The translations under genes and the position numbers were made by a program. Below the pieces are notes generated by a model. It worked only from the letters and a program-made list of their open reading frames with translations. It made no database searches and was not told the DNA's origin. Source: Lysobacter firmicutimachus (lineage in GTDB: Bacteria > Pseudomonadota > Gammaproteobacteria > Xanthomonadales > Xanthomonadaceae). Taken from it: 64,000 nucleotides of DNA. Below are positions 3,490 through 49,639 of this stretch, piece by piece (the first letter of the stretch is position 1; each line of letters starts with the position of its first letter). Location of the stretch: assembly GCF_037027445.1 (NCBI RefSeq), contig NZ_JBANDL010000002.1:1302001-1366000 (forward strand). Direction: 5' to 3'.

Positions 3490-3610
3490 GCCGGGAATGG
3501 GGAACAGGGAATAGGGAATCGAAACGGCAGCAGCGCAACGACGCTAACGCTCGTCGGCGTCCGGCGAATCCGCCGTATCCATTCCCCATTCCCCATTCCC
3601 CATTCCCGGC
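3490..3610. repeat. Inverted heptad-repeat element 1 (hemA-prfA)
   Basis: The left arm (3490-3520) has GGGAATN units and the right arm (3579-3610) the complementary ATTCCCC units. GCCGGGAATGGGG at 3490-3502 is perfectly complementary to 3598-3610. The right arm lies inside the 3' end of hemA and the left arm ends 7 nt upstream of the prfA ATG. This is a GGGAATN variant of the GGGATTS heptads in the other elements. Confidence 0.85.
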
Positions 3611-4854
3611 TTCACCGCCGGAAACATCTTGTCCGCCGCCCGCGCCAGCTCCGGATTGCCGGTCAGTGCCGCCTCGCGCAGGGCCACGGTCGGGGCGTGC
3701 AGGAGGCGGTTGGTCAGGGTGTTGGCGAGGAAGTTCAGCACCTGGGCCGGGTCCTGCCCGGCGGCGAGCTGGGCCTGGGCCTTGGCCAGGACTTCGGCGC
3801 GCGCGACTTCGCCGTGCTCGCGCAGGCGCTTGATCGGCGCGGTGCGGGTGCTGGCGGCGAGGGTTTCGACGAAACGCGCGACCTGCAGCTCGACGATGGC
3901 CTCGGCTTCGGTGGCGGCCTCGCGGCGGCTGCGGCGGTTGTCTTCGATCGCCCGCTCCAGATCGTCGACGGTGTACAGGAACACGTCTTCCAGGTCGGCG
4001 ACGTCGGCGGCGATGTCGCGCGGCACGGCCAGGTCGAGCAGCAGCATCGGCCGATGCTTGCGTTGCGCGCGCGCGGCGGCGACGTCGGCGCGGCGCAGGA
4101 TCGGTTCGCGGCTGGCGGTCGCCGACAGGACGATGTCGGCTTCCCCCAGGTGGCGGTCGAGTTCGCTCAGCGGCAGGGCGAAGCCGCCGTGGCGGCTGGC
4201 CAGGTCCTGGGCGTGGGCGAGGGTGCGGTTGGCGATCAGCAGGCGCTTGGCCTTGGCCTGGACCAGGTGGCGCGCGGCCAGCTCGATGGTCTCGCCGGCG
4301 CCGATCAGCAGCACGGTCGAGTCTTCCAGCCGGGCGAAGGATTCCTGCGCCAGCCGTACCGCGGCCGAAGCCACCGAGACGGGATTGGCGCCGATGCGGG
4401 TGTCGGTGCGGGCGCGCTTGGCGGTCGAAAAGGCTTGCTGGAACAGTCGGTCGAGCTGGCTGCCGAGGCTGCCGGCGGCGCGCGCCACCGCCCAGGCGTC
4501 CTTGACCTGGCCGAGGATCTGCGGCTCGCCGAGCACCAGCGAGTCCAGCCCGGTGGCGACCCGGAACAGGTGGCGCACCGCATCGGCGTCGCGGTGACGG
4601 TACAAATAAGCGTGCAGATCGCCGGCATCGTCGGGATGCGTAGCCAGCCACTCGGCCAGGGCGCCGCCGTCGTCGTCGGCGACCGCATAGACCTCGGTGC
4701 GGTTGCAGGTCGACAGCAGCGCGACTTCGCGCACCGGCGCCAGAGCGCGCAGCGCGGCCAGCGCCGCCGACACCGCGTCGCCGGAGAACGCCACCCGTTC
4801 GCGCAGGCTGACCGGCGCGGTCTGGTGGTTGATCCCGAGCACGAACAGGCTCAT
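3544..4854 (-). CDS. hemA: Glutamyl-tRNA reductase
   Basis: HemA reduces glutamyl-tRNA(Glu) to glutamate-1-semialdehyde with NADPH, the first committed step of C5 haem synthesis. The N-terminus reads [20 protein letters not shown], and the catalytic cysteine is C50 in [13 protein letters not shown] Rossmann NADPH-binding domain ([17 protein letters not shown]) and a helical dimerisation domain follow. At 436 residues it is slightly long. The last 22 or so residues, beginning [12 protein letters not shown], are encoded by the heptad repeat and by flanking sequence unlike the usual HemA tail. It is divergent from the TPR gene, with 164 nt between start codons, and leads into prfA. Confidence 0.97.
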
Positions 4855-5018
4855 CGGTGCGAGCGGTTTCCCACCGTCGCGCCGGCCGGGCGCATCGCCG
4901 TCGCAACGCGGCGAAAAAGTTTCATCGTTCGGCGAGGGCGGCGGGACATCGGTTCAGGTGCTTGCGATAAGCTGCGGGCTGCTGAAGGCCGCCATTCTAC
5001 CGGCCCACTGGTCCCGAC

Positions 5019-6842
5019 GTGGTTTTCTACGCATCGATTTTCCCGATCGGTCCCATAGACGCCGCCTGCGACGCGGCCGGCGACGGCAGGAACGCCGCCC
5101 CCGCACCGCGCGCGACGGCGCTGGCCCGGCGCATCGGCGCCGCCCTGGTCGGCCTGCTGCTCGCCGCCCCGGCGCTGGCCGCGACCGTGCCCTCGGCGCC
5201 GTCCGCCGCCGCGCTGGCCGCCGCCCGGACCACCATCCGCGAGCGCGCCGCCGCCGACCCGACCGGCGCCTCGCTGGAAGCGCTGATGAGCGGCGAATTC
5301 GCCCTTCAGGCCGGCAAGCTGAACGATGCCGCCGCGGCCTATCTCAAGGCCGCGCGCGCGGCCGGCGACCGCGAGCTGGCCGAACGCGCGACCAACATCG
5401 CCGTGCTGGCCAAACAGGACCAGGTCGCCGGCGAGGCCCTGGCGCTGTGGCGCAAGCTCGGCGGCCAGGGCGGCGGGGTGGCCGCGGCCGAGGCCACTTT
5501 GTCGCTGCGCCGCGGCGACGATCGCGCGGCCCTGCGCCAGCTCAACGAATTGATGGCCGCCGACCCCGAGGCCGGCTGGCGCCAGGTGCTGGTGGTGCTG
5601 ACCACCGGCTCGAAGAACCCGGAACAGGCCGGGCGCGTGCTGGAGAAGATCGTCGACGGCGGCAAGATCCCGCCGCGCAATCTGATGGCCTGGGTCGCCT
5701 TCGGCGGCTTGTCGCAGCGCCTGGACCGGCCCAAGCTGACCGAGCGCATCGTCGAGGAAGTGGTCGAGCGTTTTCCGGGCGAGCCGCGCGTGGCCCTGCT
5801 GCGGGTCAGCCAGTTGCGCGAAGACGGCAAGACCGACGAAGCGCGCAAGCTGCTGCAGACCCTGGAGCCGCAGGCCGACCGCGACACCAGCCTGCGCGCG
5901 CTGGTCGCCGAACAGTACGAGGCGCTGAAGGACTTCCAGGCGGTCGCCGCCGTGCTCGGGCGCGGCCCGCAGGACGAGCAGACCTACGCGTTGCGCGCGT
6001 CCTATCTGGCCCGCGCCGAAGACAAGCCGACCCTGACCCGGCTCTATGACGAGCTGCGCGCCAGCGCGGCCAAGCCCGATCCGGCGCGGCGTCTGTTGCT
6101 GGGGCAGTTGGCCGAGTTCCTGGAGCGCAACGAAGAGGCGCTGACCTGGTACCAGGGCGTGCCGGGCGGTTCGCAGCGTTCGCTGGCGCGCCTGCGCAGC
6201 AGCAACGTGCTGCACAAGCTCGACCGCGCCGACGAGGCCTATGCCAACCTGCGCGCGATGCAGGCCGACGCCGCGATCCAGGACGACGCGCGCCGCGACG
6301 CTTATCTGCTGGAAGCCAACCTGCGCGCCGACGACAAGAACGACGCCGGCGAGAGCGATGCCTTCGCCCGCGGCCTGGCGGCGTTCCCGGACGAGCCGGA
6401 AATTCTCTACGCCCGCGCTCTGAGCTGGGAGCGCCGCGACGACATCGCCCGCGCCGAGGCCGATCTGCGCCGGATCCTGGTCGCCGAACCGGACAACAGC
6501 GCCGCGCTGAACGCGCTCGGCTACACCCTGGCCGACCGCACCACCCGCTACCAAGAAGCGCTGGAGCTGATCGAGCGCGCCCGTGCCGCCGAGCCGAACA
6601 ACTACGCGGTGATCGACAGCTACGGCTGGGTGCTGTATCGCCTGGGCCGGGTCGCCGAGGCCGAAACCGAACTGCGCCGGGCCCTGACCCTGCAGAAGGA
6701 CGCCGAAGTCGCCGCCCACCTGGGCGAAGTGCTGTGGCAGACCGGCAAGCGCGAGGAAGCGCGCAAGTATTTCGATCAGGCCAAGCAGATCGATCCCGAC
6801 AACCGCTCGCTGCTGCGCGCGCTGAAGAAGCTGGGTTTATGA
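5019..6842 (+). CDS. Exported tetratricopeptide repeat protein
   Basis: A 607-residue protein with a signal-peptide-like segment ([19 protein letters not shown], ending near residue 55) followed by repeated TPR helices. The clearest are at the C-terminus, as in LAEVGYTL-like [20 protein letters not shown] and [19 protein letters not shown]. It probably acts in the periplasm as a protein-interaction scaffold; the partner is unknown. The GTG start leaves about 35 residues before the hydrophobic core, longer than usual, and no other ATG/GTG/TTG start lies in frame before the signal region, so the start is uncertain. Its stop overlaps the lolB start (ATGA), which suggests translational coupling and perhaps a link to lipoprotein export. 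Confidence 0.8.
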
Positions 6843-7840
6843 GCGCCGCAGCCCCTCTGTCCGCGCCGCGTCCTGCGGCGCGCCTGTTCGGTGTCGCGGC
6901 CTTGGCGCTGCTGCTCGGCGCCTGCGCCAGCGCGCCGGGCAAGCGTTCGCCGCCGTCAGGGCAGGTCGTGCCGGCCGCCGACGCCGCTGCGCGCGAGGCC
7001 GCGCGCGTCGCCCGCCTGCGCGGCCAGGACGCGTGGGCGTTGAGCGGCCGCATCGCCGTGTCCAACGCCGGCAAGGGCGGCAGCGGCCGGATCGAATGGA
7101 ACCAACGTGGCGACGCCTTCGACGTGGCGCTGAGCGCGCCGGTGACCCGGCAGAGCTGGCGGCTGAGCGGCGGCCCCGACGGCGCCCGCCTGGAAGGGCT
7201 GGACGGCGGTCCGCGCGAGGGCGGCGACGCCGCCGCGTTGCTGCGCGAAGCCACCGGCTGGGAGATCCCGGTCGCGGCCTTGGCCGACTGGCTGCGCGCG
7301 CTGCCGGCCGGCGGCGGCGCGCAGGCGCAGATCGCCCCGGAGGCCGACGGCCGCCCGCAATCGATCGAGCAGGGCGGTTGGCGGATCGGCTACGAATGGC
7401 CGGCGACCGGCGACTTGCCGGCGCGGCTGGACGCGCGCCGCGACGGTGCCCGGGTGCGCTTGATCGTGGACCAGTGGCAGGGGCTGGCCGACGCCGATTC
7501 CAGCATGCCCGAGCCCGCTGCCGAGAGCCAGGCCGAGCAACTGCAGCGCGAGCTGTCGCAGCTGGATCTGAACGATCCGGCCGCCGACCTGCGCCGCAAC
7601 GTCGCCCGAGGCGACCGGCGCCCGATCGGCGTGTGCGGTTTCGCCTGCCTGGCGCCGGGGCTGCCTCAGGGCGAGCAGCCCCAGCGGCAGGGCCTGCGGA
7701 TCTTGTCCGGTACCGGCGATGTGGTCGAAGGCGAGCGCCATGAACGCCTGATCGAACAGGCCCGGGCCTATGCCACCGCCTACAACCGGGCCCTGGGCGA
7801 CTGGTTGCGCGCGCATCCGTCCCGCTCGCCCCGTCCCTGA
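6839..7840 (+). CDS. lolB: Outer-membrane lipoprotein receptor LolB, with C-terminal extension
   Basis: LolB accepts lipoproteins from periplasmic LolA and inserts them in the outer membrane. The start is ATG 6839, overlapping the previous stop. A lipoprotein signal peptide ends in LLLGAC with the lipidated cysteine at residue 29. The core domain ([20 protein letters not shown], ending near RLIVDQWQG) fills residues 45 to about 215. LolB proteins are usually close to 200-220 residues, while this one is 333. The extra 118 residues contain [14 protein letters not shown] and a final helix, and I do not recognise them. Position directly before ispE is the standard lolB-ispE-prs order. The core call is firm; the tail's role is open. 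Confidence 0.9.
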
Positions 7841-7878
7841 CGATCGCCGGTTCACCCGACTCGCCGTTGCGCCCCGCC

Positions 7879-8766
7879 ATGTCCGATCCGCTTCCCTTCG
7901 CCGCCAACACCGAGCCTGGCTGGTCGATCTGGCCTGCCCCGGCCAAGCTGAACCTGTTCCTGCGCATCGTCGGCCGCCGCGCCGACGGGTATCACCTGTT
8001 GCAAACCGTGTTCCGTCTCCTGGATTGGGGAGACACGATCCGCCTGCGCCTGCGCAGCGACGGCCGGGTGGTCCGCCACGGCGGCTCGGTGGCCGGCGTG
8101 GCCGAGGCCGACGACCTCACCGTGCGCGCCGCTCGCCTGCTGCAAGTGGAGTCAAAATGCAGTCAAGGTGCCGACATCGTCGTCGAAAAGCGTATTCCGG
8201 CCGGCGGTGGCTTCGGTGGCGGCTCGTCCGACGCGGCGACCGTGCTGGTGGCCCTGGATGCGCTTTGGGGCACCAACCTCGGCGTCGAGCGCCTGGCCGC
8301 GCTGGGCTTGCGCCTGGGCGCCGACGTGCCGGTGTTCGTGCGCGGTGATAACGCCTGGGCCGAGGGGGTGGGCGAGGACCTGCGCCCGATCGCGCTGGCG
8401 CCGGCCTGGTATGTGCTCGCCGATCCCGGCGTCCATGCCCCCACCGCGGCCCTGTTTCAATCCCCTGAATTGACGCGGGATGCCGCGCCCGCGACAATAT
8501 CGGACTTCGTTTCGGGTTCGCCGCTCGGGAATGCGTTCGAGCCGGTGCTGCGTCAGCGCGAGGCCGCCGTCGAGGCCGCTTTCGCCGCTCTGTCGCGGAT
8601 CGGTTCGCCACGCCTGACCGGCTCCGGCAGCGGCTGTTTCGTCGAGTTCGCGAGTCGCGAATCGGCGCAGGCGGCGCTGGCGGAACTGCCCTCCGGCCTG
8701 CGGGCCTGGGCGGCCGGCGGCGCAGCGCGCTCGCCGCTGCGCGATGCGCTCGAAGCGAGAAGCTGA
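7879..8766 (+). CDS. ispE: 4-(cytidine 5'-diphospho)-2-C-methyl-D-erythritol kinase
   Basis: IspE phosphorylates CDP-methylerythritol with ATP in the non-mevalonate isoprenoid pathway. ATG 7879 ([11 protein letters not shown]) is preferred over the TTG four codons earlier because it leaves the usual short lead to [17 protein letters not shown]. The GHMP-kinase glycine-rich ATP loop is [17 protein letters not shown] near residues 108-124, and the C-terminal GHMP motif is [12 protein letters not shown]. The length of 295 residues is close to normal. It follows lolB by 38 nt and precedes tRNA-Gln by 18 nt, so the tRNA is probably processed from the same transcript. Confidence 0.96.
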
Positions 8767-8784
8767 AAACACGCGTGAACACAC

Positions 8785-8861
8785 AGGGGCGTCGCCAAGT
8801 GGCCCAAGGCACCGGGTTTTGATCCCGGCATTCGTAGGTTCGAATCCTACCGCCCCTGCCA
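8785..8861 (+). tRNA. tRNA-Gln (TTG anticodon)
   Basis: The cloverleaf spans 77 nt. The acceptor stem AGGGGCG/CGCCCCT, the anticodon arm CCGGG-TTTTGAT-CCCGG with anticodon TTG at 8819-8821, the T arm GTAGG-TTCGAAT-CCTAC and an encoded CCA are all visible. It reads CAA, and CAG by wobble. It lies between ispE and prs. Confidence 0.97.
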
Positions 8862-8867
8862 TTTCGT

Positions 8868-8956
8868 GGGATTGGAGATTTGGGATTCGGGATTCGTACC
8901 AAGGCACGACATCGCAGCCGCCGCTACGAATCTCGAATCCCAAATCCCGAATCCCG
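8868..8956. repeat. Inverted heptad-repeat element 2 (tRNA-Gln to prs)
   Basis: The left arm (8868-8896) is GGGATTG-GAGATTT-GGGATTC-GGGATTC. The right arm (8927-8955) is nearly its reverse complement, with a spacer of about 30 nt. It begins 6 nt after the tRNA CCA end and stops about 10 nt before the prs GTG. Confidence 0.88.
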
Positions 8957-8966
8957 GTCAAAGACA

Positions 8967-9926
8967 GTGCAAAACGATCGCAACCTGTTGGTGTTCAGCG
9001 GCAACGCCAACCGTCCGCTTGCCGAAGCGGTGTGCAAGGAGCTCGGCATCCGGCTCGGCAAGGCCCTGGTGGGCCGCTTCTCCGATGGGGAAGTGCAGGT
9101 CGAGATCGAAGAGAACGTGCGTCGTCAGGAAGTGTTCGTCATTCAGCCGACGAACGCGCCGACGGCCGAGAATTTCATGGAACTGCTGGTCCTGATCGAC
9201 GCGCTCAAGCGCGCCTCGGTGGCCAGCGTGACCGCGGTGGTGCCGTACTTCGGCTACGCCCGCCAGGACCGCCGCCCGCGTTCCTCGCGCGTGCCGATCA
9301 CGGCCAAGGTCGCGGCCAAGATGTTCGGCGCGGTCGGCGCCGACCGGGTGCTCACGGTCGATCTGCATGCGGATCAGATCCAGGGCTTCTTCGACATCCC
9401 GGTCGACAACGTCTACGCCTCGCCGCTGCTGCTCGCCGATATCTGGCGCGCGCACGGCACCGACAACCTGATCGTCGTGTCCCCGGACGTCGGCGGCGTG
9501 GTGCGCGCGCGAGCGATCGCCAAGCGCCTGGACGACGCGGACCTGGCGATCATCGACAAGCGCCGTCCGCGCGCCAACGTCGCCACGGTGATGAACATCA
9601 TCGGTGACGTGTCGGGCAAGACCTGCGTGCTGGTCGACGACATCGTCGACACCGCCGGCACCCTGTGCGCCGCCGCGGCGGCGCTCAAGGCGCAGGGCGC
9701 GCAGAAGGTCGTGGCCTACTGCACCCACCCGGTGCTGTCGGGCGCGGCCATCGACAACGTGACCAAGTCGCAGCTGGACGAGCTGGTGGTGACCGACACC
9801 ATCCCGCTGACCGCCGCGGCGCGGGCCACCGGCCGCATCCGCCAGCTCAGCGTCGCCGAGCTGCTGGCCGAAACGATCCGCCGCATCGCCTTCGGCGAGT
9901 CGGTCAGCTCGTTGTACGTCGACTGA
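8967..9926 (+). CDS. prs: Ribose-phosphate pyrophosphokinase (PRPP synthetase)
   Basis: Prs converts ribose-5-phosphate and ATP to PRPP for purines, pyrimidines, histidine, tryptophan and NAD. GTG 8967 gives [20 protein letters not shown] and 319 residues, the family's normal size; longer in-frame starts would only translate the repeat upstream. The catalytic-flexible-loop region [12 protein letters not shown] and the PRPP-binding loop [13 protein letters not shown] are intact. No good Shine-Dalgarno sequence precedes the GTG (CGGTCAAAGACA only), because a heptad element abuts the start. Neighbours ispE, tRNA-Gln and rplY give the usual gammaproteobacterial order. Confidence 0.97.
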
Positions 9927-9930
9927 TTTC

Positions 9931-10018
9931 GGGATTGGGGATTCGGGATTAGGGATTCGTTGAAGCAGGGGCGGCGCCACCGCCTTGCGAATCCCAAATC
10001 CCGAATTCCCATTCCCCG
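9931..10018. repeat. Inverted heptad-repeat element 3 (prs-rplY)
   Basis: The left arm 9931-9959 (GGGATTG-GGGATTC-GGGATTA-GGGATTC) and right arm 9988-10017 (complementary AATCCC units) flank a GC-rich spacer. It starts 4 nt after the prs stop and ends about 82 nt before the rplY ATG, one of two elements not close to the next start codon. Confidence 0.88.
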
Positions 10019-10100
10019 CTCCAAAGGCTCACCTGGTCGCGGGTGAGTCTCCAAAGCCGCCGCGAGGCGGTCTCAACGCTGTAAAACCGAGTACAAGCAA

Positions 10101-10760
10101 ATGTCCGAACACATCATCAAGGCCACTGGCCGCAACGTCGAGGGGAAGGGTGCGAGCCGCCGCCTGCGTCGTGCCGCCAGCATCCCGGCCATCGTCTACG
10201 GCGGCACCGCCGCTCCGCAGCCGGTCCAGCTCGACCACGAGAAGATCTGGCTGGCCAGCCAGCACGAGTGGTTCTACTCCTCGATCCTGAGCCTGGACGT
10301 CGACGGCAAGGTCGAGCAGGTTCTGCTGCGCGACATGCAGCGCCACCCGTTCAAGCAGATCATCATGCACCTGGACTTCCAGCGCGTCGACGCCAACCAG
10401 GCGCTGCGCGTGGCCGTGCCGCTGCACTTCCTCAACGAAGACAAGTCGCCGGCCGGCAAGTCCGCCGATGTCGTGGTCACCCACGAGCTCAACGAAGTCG
10501 AAGTCAGCTGCCTGCCGAAGGACCTGCCGGAGTTCATCGAAGTCGATCTGTCGGCGCTCAAGGTCGGCGACATCGTCCATCTGTCGGAGCTGAAGCTGCC
10601 GAAGGGCGTGGAAATCCCCGAGCTGAAGCTGGGCAAGGAACACGACGTCGCCGTCGTGATCGCCAAGCACGGCAAGGAAGAGGTCGTCTCCGACGCCGAG
10701 GCCCCGGCCGCCGAAGTGCCGGCCGCCAAGGTCTCGAAGAAGGACGAAGACAAGAAGTGA
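10101..10760 (+). CDS. rplY: 50S ribosomal protein L25 (Ctc-type, two-domain)
   Basis: L25 binds 5S rRNA in the large subunit. At 219 residues this is the long TL5/Ctc form: an N-terminal 5S-binding beta barrel (residues 1 to about 95, with [16 protein letters not shown]) and a C-terminal domain (from about residue 100, [20 protein letters not shown]), ending in an Ala/Lys-rich tail. The short single-domain E. coli protein lacks the second part. The ATG has only a weak purine stretch before it. The 82-nt leader contains GCCGCC-GCGA-GGCGGT, a small GNRA-type hairpin that might influence initiation. It lies in the prs-rplY-pth-ychF unit. Confidence 0.96.
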
Positions 10761-10766
10761 TCGCTC

Positions 10767-10794
10767 GCCGGCGCGCTCTTTCGGGCGCGCCGGC
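10767..10794 (+). terminator. Intercistronic hairpin between rplY and pth
   Basis: Arms GCCGGCGCGC (10767-10776) and GCGCGCCGGC (10785-10794) form a perfect 10-bp stem with an 8-nt loop, 6 nt after the rplY stop. No T-tract follows, so it may be a partial or Rho-dependent terminator or an mRNA-stability hairpin; pth follows 25 nt later. Confidence 0.45.
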
Positions 10795-10819
10795 TCGCGT
10801 TCGCGGATTGTCTTGATCC

Positions 10820-11401
10820 ATGGCGGGACTGCGCCTGATCGTCGGCCTGGGCAACCCCGGCGCCGAATACACCCGGACCCGGCACAACGCCGGGTTTTGG
10901 TTTGTGGACGCCCTGAACGAGAAGTTCGGCGGCCGCTTCGGCCTGGAGTCCAAGCTGTTCGGCGAGACCTCGAAGATCGAGATCGCCGGCCGGCCGGTGT
11001 GGCTGCTCAAGCCGGCCACCTTCATGAACCTCTCCGGCAAGTCGGTGGCCGCGGCGTTGCGCTACTGGAAGATCGAGCCGGACGAGGCGCTGTTGGCGCA
11101 CGACGAACTCGATCTGGCGCCGGGCACCGCGCGGCTCAAGTTCGACGGCGGCCACGGCGGCCAGAACGGCCTGCGCGACACCGTCCAGCACCTGGGGCAC
11201 GGCGAGTTCCACCGCCTGCGCCTGGGTATCGGCCATCCCGGCCACAAGGACAGGGTCACCCCCTGGGTGCTCGGCCGTCCCGGCAAGGACGACGAGGCCG
11301 TCATCCTGCGCGCCATCGACGAGGCCATCGACGTCATGCCACTGGCCGTGCAGGGCAATTTCCTGGACGCGATGACGCGTCTGCACACGCAGCGGCATTA
11401 G
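10820..11401 (+). CDS. pth: Peptidyl-tRNA hydrolase
   Basis: Pth releases tRNA from prematurely dropped peptidyl-tRNA by cleaving the ester bond, in the cytoplasm. The 193-residue length is normal. The N-terminus [20 protein letters not shown] carries conserved N12 and the catalytic base H22, followed by AGFWFVD. The substrate-binding [13 protein letters not shown] and the aspartate motif [14 protein letters not shown] are intact. It lies between rplY and ychF as in E. coli. The G of its TAG stop codon is also the first base of heptad element 4, so the element joins directly on to the gene. Confidence 0.96.
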
Positions 11402-11473
11402 GGATTGGGGATTCGGGATTGGCAAGAGCCAACGCTGGGCTTTTGCGAATCCCGAATCCCGAATCTCGAATCA
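11401..11473. repeat. Inverted heptad-repeat element 4 (pth-ychF)
   Basis: The left arm 11401-11421 (GGGATTG-GGGATTC-GGGATTG) and right arm 11446-11472 (GAATCCC-type units) enclose a spacer that is itself palindromic (GCAAGAGCC...GGGCTTTTGC). It starts in the pth stop codon and ends about 11 nt before the ychF ATG. Confidence 0.88.
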
Positions 11474-11484
11474 CGGACCAAAAC

Positions 11485-12576
<1,092 letters not shown>

Positions 12577-12700: not shown

Positions 12701-12712
12701 TACGGGCTCTTC

Positions 12713-17493: not shown

Positions 17494-17580
17494 CGAGATT
17501 GGCCATTCGGGATCAAGGATTGGCAAAGCCGAGCGAAAGCCGGTTTCGCGAATCCCGAATCCCCAATTCCGAATCCCGGC
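17494..17580. repeat. Inverted heptad-repeat element 5 (before rplJ)
   Basis: A degenerate left arm (17494-17523, GAGATTGGCCATTCGGGATC then AAGGATTGG) and a clearer right arm (17550-17579, GAATCCC-GAATCCC-CAATTCC-GAATCCC). The spacer GCAAAGCC...GCCGGTTTCGC resembles those of elements 4 and 6. It ends about 15 nt before the rplJ ATG, and the TTTAGGAGGAG ribosome-binding site follows directly. Confidence 0.85.
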
Positions 17581-18653: not shown

Positions 18654-18731
18654 GGGATTGGAGATTCGGGATTCGGGATTCGCAAAAGCCTGGGCTTGAG
18701 CGAGTCCCGAATCCCGAATCCCCAATCCCGG
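18654..18731. repeat. Inverted heptad-repeat element 6 (rplL-rpoB)
   Basis: The left arm 18654-18682 is GGGATTG-GAGATTC-GGGATTC-GGGATTC and the right arm about 18702-18731 is the complementary set. The short GCAAAAGCC-containing spacer is like those of elements 4 and 5. It ends 181 nt before rpoB. Confidence 0.87.
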
Positions 18732-23076: not shown

Positions 23077-23082
23077 GCGCGG

Positions 23083-23186
23083 TGATTGGGGATTCGGGAT
23101 TCGGGATTGGCAAGGCGAACGCCTGCGGTCCCGATCCCTCGAGTCCCCGCTTCAACGAATCTCGATTCTCTAATCCCGAATCCCGG
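23083..23186. repeat. Inverted heptad-repeat element 7 (rpoB-rpoC)
   Basis: The left arm 23084-23111 (GATTGGG-GATTCGG-GATTCGG-GATTGG) and right arm 23156-23185 (CGAATCTCGATTCTCTAATC then CCGAATCCC) enclose about 45 nt. It fills nearly the whole 118-nt gap and ends about 8 nt before the rpoC ATG, so its last bases sit at the rpoC ribosome-binding site (CGGAGTCACAC). Confidence 0.87.
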
Positions 23187-31060: not shown

Positions 31061-31185
31061 CGGGATTCGGGTACCGGGGTCCGGGATTCGCGAAGCGGGT
31101 TCCGGGTCCGGCCAGGCCGAATCCGATCACAGACAACGGGGCCGGGAGACGCGCTTGCGAATCCCGAATCCCAAACCACGAATCA
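31061..31185. repeat. Inverted heptad-repeat element 8 (fusA-tuf)
   Basis: A degenerate left arm (31061-31092, CGGGATTCGGGTACC then GGGGTCCGGGATTCG) and right arm 31157-31185 (GCGAATCCCGAATCC then CAAACCACGAATC) lie about 65 nt apart. It is the most diverged full copy. It begins 6 nt after the fusA stop and ends about 23 nt before the tuf ATG. Confidence 0.78.
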
Positions 31186-31208
31186 CCGCAATTTAAAGAG
31201 AGACAACC

Positions 31209-41007: not shown

Positions 41008-41014
41008 GGCTTGA

Positions 41015-41713: not shown

Positions 41714-41903
41714 GAACGAAGCCGGTACCGGCACCGTCAAGGTGCGTCTGGTCAAGGGTCTGCGTGGCACCCAGTCGCGTCACCGCCTGTCGGTGAAGGC
41801 GCTGGGCCTGAACAAGCTCAACGACGTGCGTGAACTGAAGGACAGCCCGCAGGTGCGCGGCCTGATCAACAAGGTTCACTACCTCGTCCAGGTCGAGGAG
41901 TAA
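41706..41903 (+). CDS. rpmD: 50S ribosomal protein L30
   Basis: L30 is a small 50S protein found near 5S rRNA. The 65 residues start [20 protein letters not shown] and contain [20 protein letters not shown] and [29 protein letters not shown] inside rpsE is the ribosome-binding site. It overlaps rpsE by 8 nt and is followed 5 nt later by rplO. Confidence 0.97.
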
Positions 41904-41908
41904 TCATC

Positions 41909-42346
41909 ATGCGTCTCAACACTCTCAAGCCGGCCGACGGCGCTCGTCAGGAGCGTACTCGCGTCGGTCGCGGCATCGGTTCGGGCCTGGGCAAGACCGC
42001 CGGTCGCGGTCACAAGGGTTCGTTCGCGCGCGCCGGTAAGGGCAAGATCAAGGCCGGCTTCGAAGGCGGCCAGATGCCCATGCAGCGCCGCCTGCCGAAG
42101 ATCGGCTTCCGCTCGAAGCTGGCCAAGGACACCGCCGAAGTGCTGCTGTACCAGCTGGACAAGCTGGACGCCGGCGACGTCGATTTCGCCGCGCTGAAGG
42201 CCGCCAAGCTCGTCCCGAGCACGGCCAAGCAGGCCAAGATCGTCAAGAAGGGCGAGCTGACCAAGAAGTTCGTGCTCAAGGGCGTGCTGGCCACGGCCGG
42301 CGCCAAGGCCGCGATCGAAGCGGCCGGCGGCAAGGTCGAGGAGTAA
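41909..42346 (+). CDS. rplO: 50S ribosomal protein L15
   Basis: L15 is a late assembly protein with an extended Gly/Arg-rich N-terminus. The 145 residues start [20 protein letters not shown], then [20 protein letters not shown] and [20 protein letters not shown]. The end is [26 protein letters not shown] overlaps the end of rpmD. secY starts 7 nt downstream, the usual order. Confidence 0.98.
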
Positions 42347-42353
42347 CCGACGC

Positions 42354-43727
42354 ATGGCGCGGAGCGGCAACGCGATGGCTGGCCTCGGTGGCGGGCTCGG
42401 TAAGTTCACCGAGCTCCGTCAGCGTTTGCTGTTCGTGATCGGCGCTTTGATCGTCTACCGCATCGGCAGCTACATCCCGGTGCCGGGCGTCAACCCGCAG
42501 GCGATGGTCGAATTCATGTCGACCAAGCAGGGCACGATCGTGGACATGTTCAACATGTTCTCGGGCGGCGCCCTGCATCGCTTCAGCCTGTTCGCGCTGA
42601 ACGTGATGCCGTACATCTCGGCATCGATCATCGTCCAGCTGCTGGTGCAGATCGTGCCCAGCCTGAAGGCCATCCAGAAGGAAGGCGAATCGGGCCGGCG
42701 CAAGATCAACCAGTGGTCGCGGATGGGCGCGATTCCGCTGGCCGTGTTCCAGGCCTGGGGCATCGCCGCGGGCCTGCAGTCGAGCATGGCGCCCAATGGC
42801 GTGCCGGTGGTGTATTCGCCGGGCATGGGCTTCATCCTGACCGCGGTGATCGCGCTGACCGCCGGCACCATGTTCCTGATGTGGCTGGGCGAGCAGATCA
42901 CCGAGCGCGGCGTCGGCAACGGCGTTTCGCTGATCATCTTCGCCGGTATCGTCGCGGGCCTGCCCGCCGCGCTGCTGCAGATGTTCGAGCAGATCCGCAA
43001 CGGCGACATGAGCGCGATCGCGGCCATCGTCGTGGTCCTGCTGGTGGTCGGCTTCACCTACCTGGTCGTGTTCGTCGAACGCGGCCAGCGCCGGATCACG
43101 GTGAACTACGCCCGGCGTCAGGGCGGGCGCAACGCCTACATGAACCAGGCGTCGTTCCTGCCGCTGAAGCTCAACATGGCGGGCGTGATCCCGGCGATCT
43201 TCGCCTCCAGCATCGTCATGTTCCCGGCTACCGCCGCGACCTGGTTCGCCCAGAACAACAGCGGCAGCGGCTTCTCCGGGTTCCTGCAGCGGCTCAGCCA
43301 GTGGCTGAATCCGGGTGAACCCGTGCACATGATCCTGTATGCTGGTCTGATCGTCGGCTTCGCGTTCTTCTACACGGCGCTGGTGTTCAACTCGCAGGAA
43401 ACCGCCGACAACCTGAAGAAGTCGGGTGCGTTGATTCCGGGCATCCGTCCGGGCAAGGCGACGGCGGACTACGTTGACGGCGTGCTGACCCGCTTGACGG
43501 CGGCCGGCGCGATTTACCTGGTGATCGTCTGCCTCCTGCCGGAGGTCATGCGTACCCAACTGGGCACCTCGTTCTACTTCGGCGGCACTTCGCTGCTGAT
43601 CGTGGTGGTCGTGGTGATGGATTTCATCGCTCAAATCCAGGCTCATCTGATGTCGCATCAGTACGAAAGCCTGTTGAAGAAAGCGAACTTGAAGGGCGGC
43701 TCGCGCGGCGGTCTCGCGCGCGGGTGA
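42354..43727 (+). CDS. secY: Preprotein translocase subunit SecY
   Basis: SecY is the pore of the inner-membrane translocon and works with SecE (14674) and SecA. The 457 residues start [20 protein letters not shown]. Ten membrane segments are expected; the first is near [20 protein letters not shown], the plug region follows around residues 55-75, and the cytosolic loop [17 protein letters not shown] is intact. The C-terminus [19 protein letters not shown] is basic. The ATG follows GGAGTAACCGACGC. No rpmJ follows it. Confidence 0.98.
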
Positions 43728-43869
43728 GTCAGGACCGGTTCGCGCGCCAGAGTAGCGCGCGGGGCTGAGGGGGCAGGGCATCGCCTCATTCAGCCAGTTC
43801 AGACTCGTCGCCGGAGCATGGGCACACTCCCCATGCCGGAGTTCCGTGGCACCTCTGGTGCCGCGGGGC

Positions 43870-43898
43870 TTCCTATTAACCCGAGACCTAGATACAAT
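43870..43898 (+). promoter_or_regulatory. Possible promoter of the alpha operon (rpsM)
   Basis: -10 TACAAT (43893-43898) stands 17 nt after TTCCTA (43870-43875), a poor -35. The 232-nt secY-rpsM gap also contains two hairpins, GCATGGG...CCCATGC (43817-43835) and GGCACC-TCT-GGTGCC (43848-43862). S4 regulates this operon from its leader in E. coli, but I did not recognise that pseudoknot. Confidence 0.4.
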
Positions 43899-43959
43899 TT
43901 CCAGTTCACTCCGCCAGGATTAATCCGTCCTGGCCGCCAAACCAGTTGGAGATCGCGTT

Positions 43960-44316
43960 ATGGCGCGTATTGCGGGCGTCAATTTGCCTGCCCAGAAGCA
44001 TGTCTGGGTTGGGCTCCAGAGCATCTACGGCATCGGCCGTACCCGTTCGAAGCAGATCTGCGAAACCGCAGGTGTGACCTCGACCACCAAGATCCGCGAC
44101 CTGTCCGAGCCGGAAGTCGAGCGCTTGCGCGCCGAGGTCGGCAAGTTCGTGGTCGAAGGCGACCTGCGCCGCGAAATCGGCATCGCCATCAAGCGTCTGA
44201 TGGACCTGGGCTGCTATCGCGGCCTGCGTCACCGTCGCGGCCTGCCGCTGCGCGGTCAGCGTACCCGGACCAATGCTCGTACCCGTAAGGGTCCGCGCAA
44301 GGCCATCAAGAAGTAA
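43960..44316 (+). CDS. rpsM: 30S ribosomal protein S13
   Basis: S13 forms bridges B1a/b between the subunits and touches P-site tRNA. The 118 residues start [20 protein letters not shown] and contain [16 protein letters not shown] and the C-terminal [20 protein letters not shown] then [14 protein letters not shown]. First gene of the alpha operon. The ribosome-binding site (TTGGAGATCGCGTT) is clear. Confidence 0.98.
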
Positions 44317-44329
44317 GGGGACCTAGACC

Positions 44330-44722
44330 ATGGCCAAGCCGGCAGCAGTCAAGACCAAGAAGAAGATCAAGCGCGTCGTCACCGACGGCATCGCCCACGT
44401 CCACGCTTCTTTCAACAACACCATCATCACGATCACCGACCGCCAGGGCAACGCGCTGTCGTGGGCGACTTCGGGCGGCGCGGGTTTCCGCGGCTCGCGC
44501 AAGTCGACTCCGTTCGCCGCCCAGGTCGCCGCCGAAAAGGCCGGCCGCGCTGCGCTCGACTACGGCGTCAAGTCGCTGGAAGTCCGCATCAAGGGCCCGG
44601 GCCCGGGTCGTGAGTCCGCCGTTCGTTCGCTGAACAACGTCGGTTACAAGATCATCAACATCATCGACGTGACGCCGATCCCGCACAACGGGTGCCGTCC
44701 GCCGAAGAAGCGTCGCGTCTGA
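44330..44722 (+). CDS. rpsK: 30S ribosomal protein S11
   Basis: S11 sits on the platform near the mRNA exit. The 130 residues start [20 protein letters not shown] and contain [20 protein letters not shown] and the end [18 protein letters not shown], all standard. AAGGGGACCTAGACC precedes the ATG. The next gene, rpsD, follows after 14 nt. Confidence 0.98.
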
Positions 44723-44736
44723 GGAGCTGAAGAACC

Positions 44737-45366
44737 ATGGCTCGTTATATTGGCCCCACCTGTAAGCTCGCCCGTCGCGAAGGCGCCGACCTCGGCCTGA
44801 AGTCGTCCGCGCGCGCGCTCGACTCGAAGTGCAAGCTCGAGCAGAAGCCCGGCCAGCATGGCCCGACCGCCCGCAAGGGCAAGCTGTCCGACTACGCCAC
44901 CCAGCTGCGCGAAAAGCAGAAGGTCAAGCGTATCTACGGTCTGCTGGAACGTCAGTTCCGCAACTACTACAAGAAGGCCTCGACCAAGAAGGGCAACACC
45001 GGCGAGAACCTGCTGCAGTTGCTGGAAACCCGTCTGGACAACGTCGTCTATCGCATGGGCTTCGCCGTCACCCGTCCGGCCGCCCGTCAGCTGGTCTCGC
45101 ACCGCGGCGTCACGGTCAACGGCAAGTCGGTGAACCTGCCGTCGTACCAGGTCAAGGCCGGCGACGCGATCGCCCTGTCCGAACGCGCCCAGAAGCAGCT
45201 GCGCGTGCAGGAATCGCTGACCGTCTCCTCGCAGATGGACCTGTCGCCGTCGTGGGTCGAAGTCGACAGCAAGAAGTTCAGCGGCGTGTTCAAGGCGGTT
45301 CCGGATCGCGCGGACCTGCCGGCCGACATCAACGAAGCGCTGATCGTCGAGTTGTACAGCAAGTAA
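44737..45366 (+). CDS. rpsD: 30S ribosomal protein S4
   Basis: S4 starts 16S 5'-domain assembly and represses the alpha operon in E. coli. The 209 residues start [20 protein letters not shown]. Only two cysteines appear in the N-terminal part, so a full zinc site is unlikely. The S4 RNA-binding domain is [20 protein letters not shown] with [36 protein letters not shown] precedes the ATG. Confidence 0.98.
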
Positions 45367-45521
45367 TAGTGCTGGGCGCAGGCGGTTCCGCAACGGCACC
45401 GCCTTCGCCGGCAACCCAGGTCGGCGCGGCATACGCGCCGGCCGCTCCCTCGAATCGAGGGGGCTCCAAGAGCTAAAGCCTTCCGTCGCCCCCCGGCGGA
45501 GGTCATTGGAGACACCGAAAC

Positions 45522-46520
45522 ATGACGGTTACCGCCAACCAGGTACTGCGCCCGCGCGGTCCGCAGATCGAACGCCTCAACGGCAATCGCGCGAAAGTCG
45601 TGATCGAACCGTTGGAGCGCGGCTACGGCCACACGCTGGGCAACGCGCTGCGCCGCGTGCTGCTGTCGTCGATCCCGGGTTTCGCCATCACCGAGGTCGA
45701 AATCGACGGCGTGCTGCATGAGTACACCACGGTCGAAGGTCTGGAAGAGGACGTGCTGGAGGTTCTGCTGAACCTCAAGGACGTCGCCATCCGCATGCAC
45801 ACCGGCGAGTCCTCGACGCTGTCGCTGGCCAAGCAGGGCCCCGGCATCGTCACCGCCGGCGACATCAAGACCGACCACAACGTCGAAATCCTCAACACCG
45901 ACCATGTGATCTGCCACCTGACCAAGGACACGGCGATCAACATGCGTCTGAAGATCGAGCGCGGCTTCGGCTACCAGCCGGCGGCCGCCCGCCGTCGTCC
46001 GGACGAAGAAACCCGCGCCATCGGCCGCCTGATGCTGGACGCCAGCTTCTCGCCGGTCCGTCGCGTCGCCTACGCCGTCGAAGCCGCGCGCGTCGAACAG
46101 CGCACCGACCTCGACAAGCTGGTGCTGGACATCGAAACCAACGGCACGATCGACGCCGAGGAAGCCGTGCGCACCGCCGCCGACATCCTCACCGATCAGC
46201 TGTCGGTGTTCGGCGACTTCACCCACCGCGACCGCGGTGCGCAGAAGCCGGCCACCAGCGGCATCGATCCGATCCTGCTGCGCCCGATCGACGACCTCGA
46301 GCTGACCGTGCGTTCGGCCAACTGCCTCAAGGCCGAGAGCATCTACTACGTCGGCGATCTGATCCAGAAGACCGAAGTCGAGCTGCTCAAGACCCCGAAC
46401 CTGGGCAAGAAGTCGCTCACCGAGATCAAGGAAGTGCTGGCTCAGCGCGGCCTGTCCCTCGGCATGAAGCTCGAGAACTGGCCGCCGGCCGGTATCGCTT
46501 CGCACGGGATGATGGGGTGA
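45522..46520 (+). CDS. rpoA: DNA-directed RNA polymerase subunit alpha
   Basis: Alpha dimerises to start polymerase assembly; its C-terminal domain binds UP elements and activators. The 332 residues start [20 protein letters not shown]. The N-terminal domain includes [20 protein letters not shown], an acidic linker follows residue 235, and the C-terminal domain contains [20 protein letters not shown] and [36 protein letters not shown] is the ribosome-binding region. The 155-nt rpsD-rpoA gap shows a short CGGCGGTG-type palindrome only. Confidence 0.98.
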
Positions 46521-46803
46521 GCCCAAGCCTCGCTGCGCGGCGCCGCCGCGCGGCCGGGGCGAACGCCCGACGCAGTGCGCCGGGCCGCGGAACGACAAGA
46601 GTCCACGCCGAGGTTAGCCGAAGCGTGGATTCTTGATTCAAGCGACACCGTAGTCCAGCACCACCGCACCACCGCCGACGGACCGAAGTCCGCGGCCTGC
46701 CGGTCAAGGATGGCCGGTTCGGACCACCCGCAGTCCAATGCTCCAACGCCTGGATGGCGACAGCGAAGTCCAACCGTCCCAACATTCATCAGGAATCACA
46801 GCC

Positions 46804-47178
46804 ATGCGTCACCAGAAAGCCGGCCGTAAATTCAGCCGCACCAGCGCTCACCGCGATGCCATGTTCACCAACATGGCGGCCTCGCTGATCAAGCACGGCC
46901 TCATCCGCACCACCCTGCCCAAGGCCAAGGAACTGCGTCGCGTCGCCGAGCCGCTGATCACCCTGGCCAAGCAGGACGGCGTCGCCAACCGCCGCCTCGC
47001 CTTCTCGCGCCTGCGCGACAAGGAAGCCGTCGGCACCTTGTTCACCACCCTGGGCCCGCGTTACGCGAGCCGTCCGGGCGGCTACCTGCGCATCCTGAAG
47101 TGCGGCTTCCGTGCCGGCGACAACGCGCCGATGGCCTATGTGGAGCTGGTCGACCGTCCGGAAGCGGCGGCCGAGTAA
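46804..47178 (+). CDS. rplQ: 50S ribosomal protein L17
   Basis: L17 lies near the tunnel exit on the solvent side. ATG 46804 ([20 protein letters not shown]) gives 124 residues; the earlier in-frame ATG would add 22 residues foreign to the family. Conserved [20 protein letters not shown] and [20 protein letters not shown] are present. The 283-nt gap after rpoA has no gene or firm signal. Last gene of the alpha operon, followed by a strong terminator. Confidence 0.98.
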
Positions 47179-47258
47179 GACGTCCGCGCCGCAGCCGGCG
47201 CGACGAACAGCCAGCACACTGGGTCTCGGCCGCACGACGGTCGGGGCCCATGCGAGCG

Positions 47259-47288
47259 AAAACCCCGGCCGAGAGGTCGGGGTTTTTG
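47259..47288 (+). terminator. Rho-independent terminator after rplQ
   Basis: AAAACCCCGGCC (47259-47270), loop GAGA, GGTCGGGGTTTT (47275-47286), one G-U pair, with a five-T run. It ends the long ribosomal transcript. Between it and dsbB (47289-47554) I see no gene or clear promoter. Confidence 0.88.
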
Positions 47289-47554
47289 CTTTCCGGCGAC
47301 GGTTACGCCGGCAACGGTTACCACGGTAAATGTCGCGAGCCGGTATGGTCCGACCTGGGACTACAAGAGGGCTTGGGCAGACGGGAATCCGGTCGCATCG
47401 ATCCGCAGCATCGGCTGCGAGGACGAATCGTCGCAGGGCGGCAACTTTCGTGCCGCCGGCGCAGTCCATTCGGGCTGCGGCGCGACGCAGCGTTGCTCGA
47501 ATTCATGCCGATTGGACATTGGCACGACCCAACCCCGACCCGTATGGTGTGTAC

Positions 47555-48055
47555 ATGAACCCTTTCAAAGCCTCCTTCCGGATCCAATTCCTGCTCGGCT
47601 TCCTGGCCTGCGCGGGTCTGCTTGCCTACGCCTTCTATCTCCAGCTCTACCAGCATCTGGAGCCGTGCCCGCTGTGCATCTTCCAGCGGGTGGCGTTCTT
47701 CGCTCTCGGCCTGGTGTTCCTGCTCGGCGCTATCCACGGCCCGCGCAAGCCCGGCGGCCGCCGCGCTTACGGCGTGCTGAGCCTGCTGGCCGCGCTGGCC
47801 GGCATCGCCGTGGCCGGCAACCATGTCCGCCTGCAGCACCTCCCGCCGGATCAGGTGCCGGCCTGCGGCCCGGGCCTGGACTACATGCTCGAGGCGATGC
47901 CCATCGCCGGCGTCATCCGCAAGGTCATGACCGGCTCGGGCGAGTGCGCGGCGGTGGACTGGACCTTCCTCGGTTTGGCCATGCCGGCCTGGAGCCTGAT
48001 CTGCTTCATCGTGCTGGCCGTGTGGGCGGCCTATGCCGCGTTCCGCGGCCGTTGA
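47555..48055 (+). CDS. dsbB: Disulfide bond formation protein B
   Basis: DsbB reoxidises periplasmic DsbA and passes electrons to quinone. The ATG 47555 gives 166 residues, MNPFKASFRIQFLLGFLACA. Four membrane segments are visible. The first periplasmic loop has the C38-P-L-C41 pair in LEPCPLCIFQRVAF, and the second loop carries the other pair, in VPACGPGLDYM and GSGECAAVDW. All four catalytic cysteines are therefore present. It lies alone between the ribosomal block and the DAHP synthase; a dsbA is not in the window. Confidence 0.95.
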   Translation: MNPFKASFRIQFLLGFLACAGLLAYAFYLQLYQHLEPCPLCIFQRVAFFALGLVFLLGAIHGPRKPGGRRAYGVLSLLAALAGIAVAGNHVRLQHLPPDQVPACGPGLDYMLEAMPIAGVIRKVMTGSGECAAVDWTFLGLAMPAWSLICFIVLAVWAAYAAFRGR

Positions 48056-48152
48056 CCCCAGTAGTACCGACGCTTTCCCGCTACCCGTCCCGCCGCCCTC
48101 CCATTCACCCGACCACTCCCTCCCTCGCAAGCCCCAAACGGAATCCAAGGAA

Positions 48153-49544
48153 ATGAGCGCCTCCGATCGCAGCAACCTCCGTGCCGTCAATCTGCCCGCC
48201 GACTGGAGCCCGACCTCCTGGCGCGAGCGCACCGCACTGCAGTTGCCGAGCTATCCGGACGCGGCCGAGTTGGACAGCGCCTTGCAGGAGCTGCGGCAGC
48301 TGCCGCCGCTGGTGACCTCGTGGGAGATCCTGTCGCTGAAGCAGCAACTGGCCGAAGCCCAGGATGGCAAGCGATTTTTGCTGCAGGGCGGAGATTGCGC
48401 CGAGAGCTTCGACCAGTGCAGCTCGGACGTGATCTCCAACCGGCTCAAGGTGCTGCTGCAGATGAGCCTGGTGCTGGTGCACGGCATGCGCAAGCCGGTG
48501 GTGCGCGTGGGCCGCTTCGCCGGCCAGTACGCCAAGCCGCGGTCGGCCGACACCGAGACCATCGACGGCGTGACCTTGCCGAGCTACCGCGGCGACATGG
48601 TCAATGGACCGGCCTTCAACGAGACCGCGCGCAAGCCCGACCCGCGGCGCATGATCAAGGCGCACGCGCGTTCGGCGATGACGATGAACTTCGTCCGCGC
48701 GTTGATCGACGGCGGCTTCGCCGACCTGCACCACCCCGAGTACTGGAACCTGAGCTGGGTCGGCCACTCGCCGCTGGCCGACGAGTACCGGCGCATGGTC
48801 AACGCGATCGGCGACGCGGTGCGCTTCATGGAAACCCTGTCGGGTTCGGAAGTGCACAACCTCAACCGGGTCGACTTCTACACCTCGCACGAAGCCCTGC
48901 TGTTGCCGTACGAGGAGTCGCTGACCCGGCAGGTGCCGCGCCATTGGGGCTGGTTCAACCTCAGCACCCATTACCCGTGGATCGGCATGCGCACCGCGGC
49001 GGTCGACGGCGCCCATGCCGAGTACTTCCGCGGCATCCGCAATCCGATCGCGCTCAAGGTCGGCCCGTCGGTCACGCCGGACCAGCTGCTGCGCACGGTG
49101 GACCTGCTCAACCCCGACGACGAGCCGGGCCGGTTGACCTTCATCCATCGCATGGGCGCGAGCCAGATCGCGGACAAGCTGCCGACCCTGCTCGACGCGA
49201 TGCGCCGCGACGGCCGCCGCGTGCTGTGGGTGTGCGATCCGATGCACGGCAACACCGAGAGCACCAGCAACGGCTACAAGACCCGCCGCTTCCGCAATAT
49301 CCGCGCCGAGATCGAGACCGCGTTCGAGCTGCACGCGGCCGCCGGCACGCGCCTGGGCGGCGTGCACCTGGAGTTGACCGGCGAGGACGTCACCGAGTGC
49401 CTGGGCGGCGCGCGCGAGCTGACCGAGAGCGATCTGGAACGCGCCTACCGCTCCACCGTCGACCCGCGCCTGAACTACGAGCAGGCGCTGGAGGTGGCGA
49501 TGCTGATCGTGCGCAAGCAGGCGCAGATCGCGGCGCCGGCCTGA
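48153..49544 (+). CDS. 3-deoxy-7-phosphoheptulonate synthase, class II
   Basis: This enzyme condenses phosphoenolpyruvate with erythrose-4-phosphate, the first step of the shikimate pathway. The 463-residue protein belongs to the plant-like class II, not E. coli AroFGH: FLLQGGDCAESFDQC, VGRFAGQYAKPRSADTE, GDMVNGPAFNE and STHYPWIGMRT are diagnostic. ATG 48153 follows CCAAGGAA. In pseudomonads and actinomycetes such enzymes serve either aromatic amino acid synthesis or antibiotic pathways; no such cluster is here, so a housekeeping role is likelier. It ends in a clear terminator. Confidence 0.95.
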   Translation: MSASDRSNLRAVNLPADWSPTSWRERTALQLPSYPDAAELDSALQELRQLPPLVTSWEILSLKQQLAEAQDGKRFLLQGGDCAESFDQCSSDVISNRLKVLLQMSLVLVHGMRKPVVRVGRFAGQYAKPRSADTETIDGVTLPSYRGDMVNGPAFNETARKPDPRRMIKAHARSAMTMNFVRALIDGGFADLHHPEYWNLSWVGHSPLADEYRRMVNAIGDAVRFMETLSGSEVHNLNRVDFYTSHEALLLPYEESLTRQVPRHWGWFNLSTHYPWIGMRTAAVDGAHAEYFRGIRNPIALKVGPSVTPDQLLRTVDLLNPDDEPGRLTFIHRMGASQIADKLPTLLDAMRRDGRRVLWVCDPMHGNTESTSNGYKTRRFRNIRAEIETAFELHAAAGTRLGGVHLELTGEDVTECLGGARELTESDLERAYRSTVDPRLNYEQALEVAMLIVRKQAQIAAPA

Positions 49545-49563
49545 GCCGGATGCCCGAGAAAAC

Positions 49564-49592
49564 AGCCCGCCTTTCGGCGGGCTTTTTCTTTT
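49564..49592 (+). terminator. Rho-independent terminator after the DAHP synthase
   Basis: AGCCCGCC (49564-49571), loop TTTC, GGCGGGCT (49576-49583), followed by TTTTCTTTT. A strong intrinsic terminator 19 nt after the stop. Confidence 0.9.
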
Positions 49593-49596
49593 GGGC

Positions 49597-49639
49597 GGGA
49601 TTTGGGGTTCGGGATTGGGGATTGGGGATTGGGGATTGC
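49597..49639. repeat. Heptad-repeat half element (9)
   Basis: Six consecutive heptad-like units (GGGATTT, GGGGTTC, then GGGATTG four times) with no complementary arm within the next 130 nt. It lies between the convergent DAHP synthase and amidase genes, the only copy in a convergent gap. Confidence 0.85.

Follow-up and report, generated by a model that had tools for sequence, protein, structure and literature searches.

A 64,000-nucleotide stretch of the Lysobacter firmicutimachus genome (contig NZ_JBANDL010000002.1, positions 1,302,001 to 1,366,000; hereafter the window) contains a series of inverted repeats, each made of two facing arrays of seven-base units of the GGGATTS type. The best explanation for these heptad elements, and one to which we accord about an even chance, is that they belong to a single lineage-wide, turnover-prone family of REPIN-like intergenic inverted repeats whose units are conserved in sequence as hexamers. 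The initial annotation, made from the window alone, had raised the idea of a general family of dispersed palindromes, and in this it was right: a covariance model finds at least 78 distinct genomic places (counted by hand from 143 strand-wise rows, with the eight window pairs included), and at least one exact three-unit array occurs in 59 of 119 genomes of the host family, this one included (a union over three unit flavours, made by hand). The model was built from 13 elements with an RNAalifold structure, and the window copies match it by construction; its count is a floor, 150 of 9036 candidates having been scored.

The abundance of these elements was also gauged apart from the model. A pair finder applied to 40 evenly spaced 20-kb stretches (0.8 Mb) returned 14 pairs with 13 distinct right arms, which corresponds to ~86-93 in the 5.32-Mb genome, and the same finder returned six in the window, about five times the mean density. 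Nineteen of the 78 model-matched places lie at about 1.11-1.42 Mb of contig C2, a region that includes the window's ribosomal and polymerase genes. Genome-wide, a three-unit pattern with up to three mismatches has 831 hits (overlapping ones included) versus 32 for a reversed control. Within the window, where units were allowed at most one mismatch to GGGATTN, there are 16 arrays of at least two units and 12 of at least three; 20 first-order Markov simulations of the window gave 0-4 and 0, respectively, and the 12 longer arrays are thus far beyond chance. Finally, a scan for hairpins of any sequence (2.09 Mb: the window, the 40 even stretches and 80 relatives' loci) detected 262 hairpins, 73 of them strongly periodic, and in 62 of these 73 the period is seven.

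With respect to their anatomy, we have relied mainly on 78 pairs from the L. firmicutimachus loci fetched for the model matches (the own pairs), a set whose count is no measure of density and in which 5 of 64 loci yielded no finder pair. Along the transcript a typical element reads: stop codon, RRGCC, (GGGATTS)4, GCAAAAGCG, loop, mirror image, start codon. It measures about 75-120 bp; the outer RRGCC and inner GCAAAAGCG motifs recur in three flavours, and the loops are mostly unrelated between copies. Among arms at most 130 bp apart, the G-rich one leads in 142 pairs (convergent, 78+14+50) and follows in 0 (divergent, 0 in every set). Among the 142 are seven nested pairs (six own, one sampled) and elements counted twice (in an even stretch and in a fetched locus); without identical rows and the 14 sampled-stretch pairs, 126 convergent pairs are left. 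Four-unit arms are the commonest among the own pairs (left 44/78, right 47/78, pseudo-units untrimmed), and the mode is 4+4 (33 of 66 trimmed pairs). According to a simple caller of open reading frames based on GC3 (G+C at third codon positions), and with nested pairs counted, 62 of the 78 lie between co-directional genes, 7 between convergent and 6 between divergent genes, and 3 are intragenic; the median distance is 6 nt past the stop codon and 14.5 nt ahead of the start codon. No U-tract follows the stem, either by eye or in the 3' flank consensus, which is GGCY-like (no dedicated terminator scan was made).

The units themselves are conserved as hexamers. In the own TT-flavour pairs, positions 1-6 are conserved at 0.90-0.99, with A4, T5 and T6 kept at 94-99%, and position 7 is C or G about equally often. 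Positions 5-6 were free at detection; the conservation set required TT in both arms and units with at most two mismatches to GGGATT. Fourfold sites in this genome are 92% G+C, and the contrast of A4, T5 and T6 with these is softened by the element loops, which are merely 66% G+C.

The units come in several flavours. Exact three-unit arrays of GGGATTN occur in 47 of the 119 genomes, of GGGAATN in 44 and of GTGATTN in 21; 60 genomes have none of the three. The family spans many Lysobacteraceae and one genome of the Rhodanobacteraceae (a full GGGAAT pair in Frateuria, locus L091), a range that is new here. Its abundance is uneven even among close relatives: exact GGGATTN arrays in the host genus number 374, 355, 209, 2 and 2 (this genome has the 374, versus 11 of GGGAATN), and exact three-unit G[GT]GA[AT]T arrays number 36 in Pseudoxanthomonas japonensis and 0, 0, 33, 6 and 4 in five sisters. 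The rplA-rplJ, rplL-rpoB and rpoB-rpoC slots, read in 79, 79 and 74 of 80 relatives' loci, hold GGGATTN, GGGAATN, GGGAC[CT]N or GTGATTN elements, or none. By eye, the rplL-rpoB gap of locus L092 has inverted GGTTNYT-like heptads, possibly a further flavour without G-triplets, and that of L118 has four GTAGAGCCGACC hairpins in the slot that holds heptad elements in relatives; we take these hairpins to be SMAG-like. An rpoB-rpoC gap without a heptad element is often about 90 bp long and has a different GC-rich hairpin and, close to the start, a TTCCTCC...GGAG pairing (also by eye), and in some Rhodanobacter and Arenimonas among the 74 loci it is 25-28 bp only.

At the orthologous sites compared, content differs between relatives. 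In Pseudoxanthomonas, near-identical flanks enclose an rplL-rpoB slot that holds, depending on the species, a GGGAAT element, a GTGATT element or a short stretch of unrelated sequence. Between atpA and atpG (flanks 95-99% identical), P. japonensis has a GGGAAT element, one sister a GTGATT element and four others GTAG-type hairpins, and at another site (flanks 87-97%) P. japonensis has 133 bp versus 10 bp in the four sisters read; gene names and hairpins at these sites were assigned by eye. Against Lysobacter sp. Root690, 13 orthologous comparisons were made (two with a common partner), with flanks mostly 80-98% identical. Unit positions 1-6 were kept in 468 of 504 cases and position 7 in 52 of 84, and the loops agree at 294 of 600 positions, little over the 0.46 of random loops (single loops 0.10-0.77). 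The flavour differs between the two species in 2 of the 13 (the element at window position 3493, and L221). Each arm of the element at 8868 keeps 27 of 28 bases; there are rare variants and one compensated pair, and the loop is at chance. Sites that are occupied or differently filled among relatives support turnover. A mobile palindromic origin, once proposed for these elements, is possible, but neither a mover nor a recent copy was found.

The two arms of an element agree in flavour, yet not base by base. At ten mixed-flavour loci both arms are of the same flavour in 21 of 25 elements (10.7 expected; none of 2000 shuffles reaches 21). In P. japonensis, with two flavours, 13 GGGAAT and 7 GTGATT paired elements make 20 of 20 concordant (L323 is taken as GGGAAT despite one right-arm tie, and the unpaired loci L322 and L325 are omitted). 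At the seventh base, the arms of the own pairs match in 96 of 255 comparisons (0.376 versus 0.399 shuffled), and even in the best case, the own 4+4 elements, in 63 of 132 (0.477 versus 0.456, with 310 of 1000 shuffles as high). Shuffling within flavour likewise gives no coupling in Pseudoxanthomonas (44/114 = 0.386 versus 0.393) or in other relatives (67/172 = 0.390 versus 0.421). Identical double deviants in the own arms number 0, versus 1.9 expected, and G-U mismatches are about as common as A-C mismatches in this genome (45 versus 43). As pseudo-units (GGCAAAG, for instance) could shift the register, the coupling test was repeated on trimmed arrays, from which nested arms and other flavours had been removed (78 to 66 pairs), and the own result was unchanged; the 14 pairs of the sampled stretches were excluded from the coupling, concordance and G-U tests. 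Single-base variation among units with preservation of the fold had been claimed earlier, and selection for structure had been suggested. No such covariation was seen, and at the level of bases selection for pairing is unsupported, the exception being one compensatory change, G.T to C-G, seen by eye between the element at 8868 and its Root690 orthologue.

The conserved hexamer, the free seventh base and the missing pairing signal together point to recognition of the hexamer. On the REPIN-like reading, a non-autonomous element would be gained and lost in gaps between genes, and its units would be kept through a trans-acting factor that recognises the hexamer in DNA or in single strands, not through individual base pairing; the hairpins would be tolerated in operon transcripts because they fall in the gap that separates a stop codon from the following start codon.

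Several observations weigh against this reading. An all-against-all BLAST of the own pairs, with the 15 best matches listed, yielded no recent duplicates: the near-identical matches are nested self-overlaps, and the next best (L179/L213, 81% over about 150 nt) is due to long arrays. A replicative element would be expected to leave some copies that are alike, so their lack counts against one; the element loops of P. japonensis, too, differ from one another by eye. Moreover, no mover was found, no target-site duplication was seen by eye at the three compared sites, and one of these, atpG-atpD, differs over the whole intergenic region, so that import by recombination is possible there. The trans-acting factor is one that we only infer, and because arrays were detected by way of unit positions 1-4, part of the conservation there is built in. 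Not all orthologous loops have been lost, 3 of the 13 still being at 0.64-0.77, and the arms of the 8868 pair exceed their flanks (80% and 91%) in conservation, which hints at a host role. Lastly, against shuffles of the relatives' arms between species, position 7 does appear coupled (90/195 = 0.462 versus 0.382; 2/500 shuffles); this coupling, gone within flavour, is read as species and flavour structure. Alike interiors, a trait of miniature inverted-repeat transposable elements, were found neither among the best BLAST matches nor by eye in P. japonensis. A search of six genomes for a donor of the P. japonensis rplL-rpoB element gave partial matches in its own genome only, and one flank match in each of the five sisters.

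Within the window, period-seven arrays are present at all nine places initially reported, the symmetry of the arms is real, and the elements are eight inverted pairs and one single array (the pairs are given without strand):

3493..3607, no strand: element 1, GGGAAT flavour, arms 3493-3520 and 3580-3607
8868..8955, no strand: element 2, GGGATT flavour, arms 8868-8895 and 8928-8955
9931..10016, no strand: element 3, arms 9931-9958 and 9989-10016
11394..11474, no strand: element 4, arms 11394-11421 and 11447-11474
17495..17577, no strand: element 5, degenerate left arm 17495-17522, right arm 17550-17577
18654..18729, no strand: element 6, arms 18654-18681 and 18702-18729
23082..23184, no strand: element 7, arms 23082-23109 and 23157-23184
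31062..31186, no strand: element 8, degenerate, left arm 31062-31089, right arm 31159-31186
49597..49638, + strand: single array of six units with no partner

Two details of the earlier description need amendment. All eight are inverted pairs, but to call them full overstates two: the left arm is degenerate at 17494 (two imperfect units scored) and at 31061 (zero units scored, with only two in the right arm). Element 4, moreover, had been started at 11401, and its outermost unit begins at 11394. A stricter pair finder accepts six of the eight, and the covariance model matches all eight, every one of them a member of its training set. Rfam at gathering thresholds gives five tRNA matches over the window and no family for the elements.

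As to their neighbours, element 1, whose stem is extended to 3490-3610 by outer GCC/GGC pairing, has hemA on one side and, on the other, a gene for a class-I release factor, prfA by context; both are on the - strand and named from Pfam. The hemA frame (window 3544-4854, - strand) runs into this element, which provides its last residues (21 letters) and its stop. Element 2 is flanked by tRNA-Gln and the ribose-phosphate pyrophosphokinase gene, and element 3 by the latter and the L25 gene. The peptidyl-tRNA hydrolase gene (10820-11401) ends in a TAG stop that falls inside GGCATTA, the first unit of element 4. Element 5 is immediately 5' of the rplJ start region (gene named by eye), element 6 is in the rplL-rpoB intergenic region, element 7 occupies most of the rpoB-rpoC intergenic region, and element 8 is flanked by the elongation factor G and Tu genes. 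The single array directly follows a terminator-like hairpin and T-run (by eye), 3' of a class-II DAHP synthase gene. The genome is close to that of Lysobacter antibioticus, of which strain HS124 has an RplJ identical to that of the window, and its rplL-rpoB and rpoB-rpoC gaps are present in the window letter for letter.

Among the alternatives, the one that fares best, though we consider it rather unlikely, is an RNA hairpin maintained by the host between cistrons as an mRNA stabiliser, an insulator or an aid to re-initiation from stop to start. The RNA folds of the eight window elements (z -2.2 to -10.2 versus dinucleotide shuffles) are strong in five and weaker in three (31061, -2.2; 17494, -3.3; 23083, -3.4), and most own pairs lie between co-directional genes, close to stop and start codons. 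The compensatory change at 8868 and the coupling in across-species shuffles also fit, as does the lean of relatives' mismatches towards G-U (61 versus 44 A-C). However, this last excess stems mainly from unit position 2 (G-T 27 versus A-C 8), and many of the slots are orthologous and so non-independent. The uncoupled seventh base, the missing double deviants and the balance of G-U and A-C in this genome speak against the hairpin, as do the within-flavour shuffles of relatives and the 16 own pairs that are convergent, divergent or intragenic (7, 6 and 3).

We find it improbable that the elements are simply mutational products, with slippage making the tandem units and template switching at quasi-palindromes copying one arm onto the other. 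This would suit arms of common flavour, variable unit numbers, some long perfect arrays and fast-changing loops. Template switching, however, should match the seventh bases of the arms, and there is no such match within genome or flavour; the 4+4 mode of unit number also counts against this reading, and the dominance of period seven among periodic hairpins is sharper than general slippage would favour.

The reading examined by Rehm et al., a quadruplex-forming repeat, is in our view quite improbable. As many as 60 of the 78 own pairs do have an arm of at least four successive GGG units, and circular dichroism has shown quadruplexes for GGGAATC and GGGATTG oligonucleotides (PMC4692102). Against this, T5 and T6 are nearly as conserved as the Gs, a conservation that quadruplex loops would not require, and quadruplexes are not general, because the GTGATTN flavour, with the same architecture and in 21 of 119 genomes, has a consensus without GGG runs.

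REPINs mobilised by a RAYT transposase carry a tetranucleotide, GTAG or similar, at the base of the hairpin. That the heptad elements are such REPINs appears very improbable, even if their ecology and layout (an inverted pair with a variable spacer) are similar and, by eye, four Pseudoxanthomonas have GTAG-type hairpins in the atpA-atpG slot where two others have a heptad element. They have no GTAG ends, the outer consensus being RRGCC and the inner core GCAAAAGCG. The single Y1_Tnp match detected in this genome, a RAYT-like reading frame at L369 7439-8219, lies amid REP cores of its own (GTAGGAGCGGC, 15 in 15 kb), and there are no heptad arrays in those 15 kb. In the 0.8 Mb sampled, the GTAGGAGCGGC core occurs 39 times and its reversal twice. 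Y1_Tnp matches are commoner in heptad-rich genomes (at least 20 array hits), 35 of 41 versus 48 of 78 others (Fisher p 0.011, a hand tally that ignores kinship and genome size). Nevertheless, at an E-value of 0.001 none was detected in six of the 41 (G025, G030, G042, G046, G049 and G092), which have 32-298 array hits. A RAYT as the mover is thus unsupported.

An equally long shot is that each arm is written separately, by templated, telomerase-like addition to both 3' ends at a break in the chromosome. These ends would get one type of unit, G-rich on each 3'-ending strand, with the seventh position copied loosely and a filler joining them. This would explain why arms are only convergent and why flavours match without matched seventh bases, as well as the mostly unrelated loops, the lack of sister copies and the replacement of a few bases at a site; to our knowledge, no enzyme writes arms in this way.

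What emerges, then, is a wider repeat system than that known from two Xanthomonas genomes, and one with testable rules: the period is seven, an arm has about four units, the two arms match in flavour, the seventh base is free, and one slot is shared with GTAG hairpins. The case for quadruplex formation or base-by-base RNA pairing as a general explanation is weakened, and attention shifts to an enzyme that copies the units or a protein that binds them sequence-specifically. The puzzle is how pairs with matched flavour yet unmatched seventh bases originate. Several copies are placed among core-machinery genes (rpoB-rpoC, rplL-rpoB, those of elongation factors G and Tu, and atpA-atpG in Pseudoxanthomonas), and turnover of this kind is surprising there. 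None of the open-access matches listed deals with heptad elements in Lysobacter, their flavours or arm concordance.

Tandem heptanucleotides are also known in cyanobacteria, and those of Calothrix are presumably the ones named STRR. The Calothrix repeats and the G-rich heptamer of Nostoc, GGGGA(T/C)T, are both mentioned in the Xanthomonas report (PMC4692102). The Beggiatoaceae have intergenic seven-base tandem units, TAACTGA (PMC4679880); these are direct repeats of a different unit, whereas the elements here are inverted. Like REPINs (Bertels and Rainey 2011, PMC3116915), the heptad elements have two inverted conserved ends around a less conserved spacer, form hairpins and are dispersed extragenically. 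Unlike in REPINs, where that account has compensatory changes as common, such changes between the ends were not found here apart from the one by-eye case; nor is there a link between the heptad copies and the one RAYT-like gene that this genome was seen to have.

The closest relatives are the heptamers of Xanthomonas. Rehm et al. (2015, PMC4692102) counted 186 and 183 GGGAATC/(GGGANTN) repeats in two genomes, defined as at least two tandem units, (GGGAATC)n or (GGGANTN)n, with at least one GGGAATC. Those repeats have a mode of four units, form convergent pairs in 70 and 75 cases, and are intergenic, mostly between aligned genes and near stop codons; 83% of the sites are common to both genomes and 16% are absent or strongly mutated. 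By that account, quadruplexes formed in vitro, no function was found, and the repeats were identified in Xanthomonas and not in other gammaproteobacteria. The present elements resemble them in their seven-base G-rich units, the mode of four, the intergenic position between aligned genes and near stop codons, and the convergent pairing, and by unit pattern the GGGATT and GGGAAT elements fit GGGANTN. They differ in that GGGATTS is the dominant unit and the GTGATT flavour is without G-runs. New relative to the parts of that report considered here are the GCAAAAGCG core, the concordance of arm flavour, the uncoupled seventh base, the divergence of loops and the exchange of flavours in one slot. 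The initial annotation, which recognised no named family, was therefore partly mistaken: the repeat belongs with the G-rich heptamers of Xanthomonas and Nostoc (PMC4692102), and the present family is the Xanthomonas heptamer kind, broadened.

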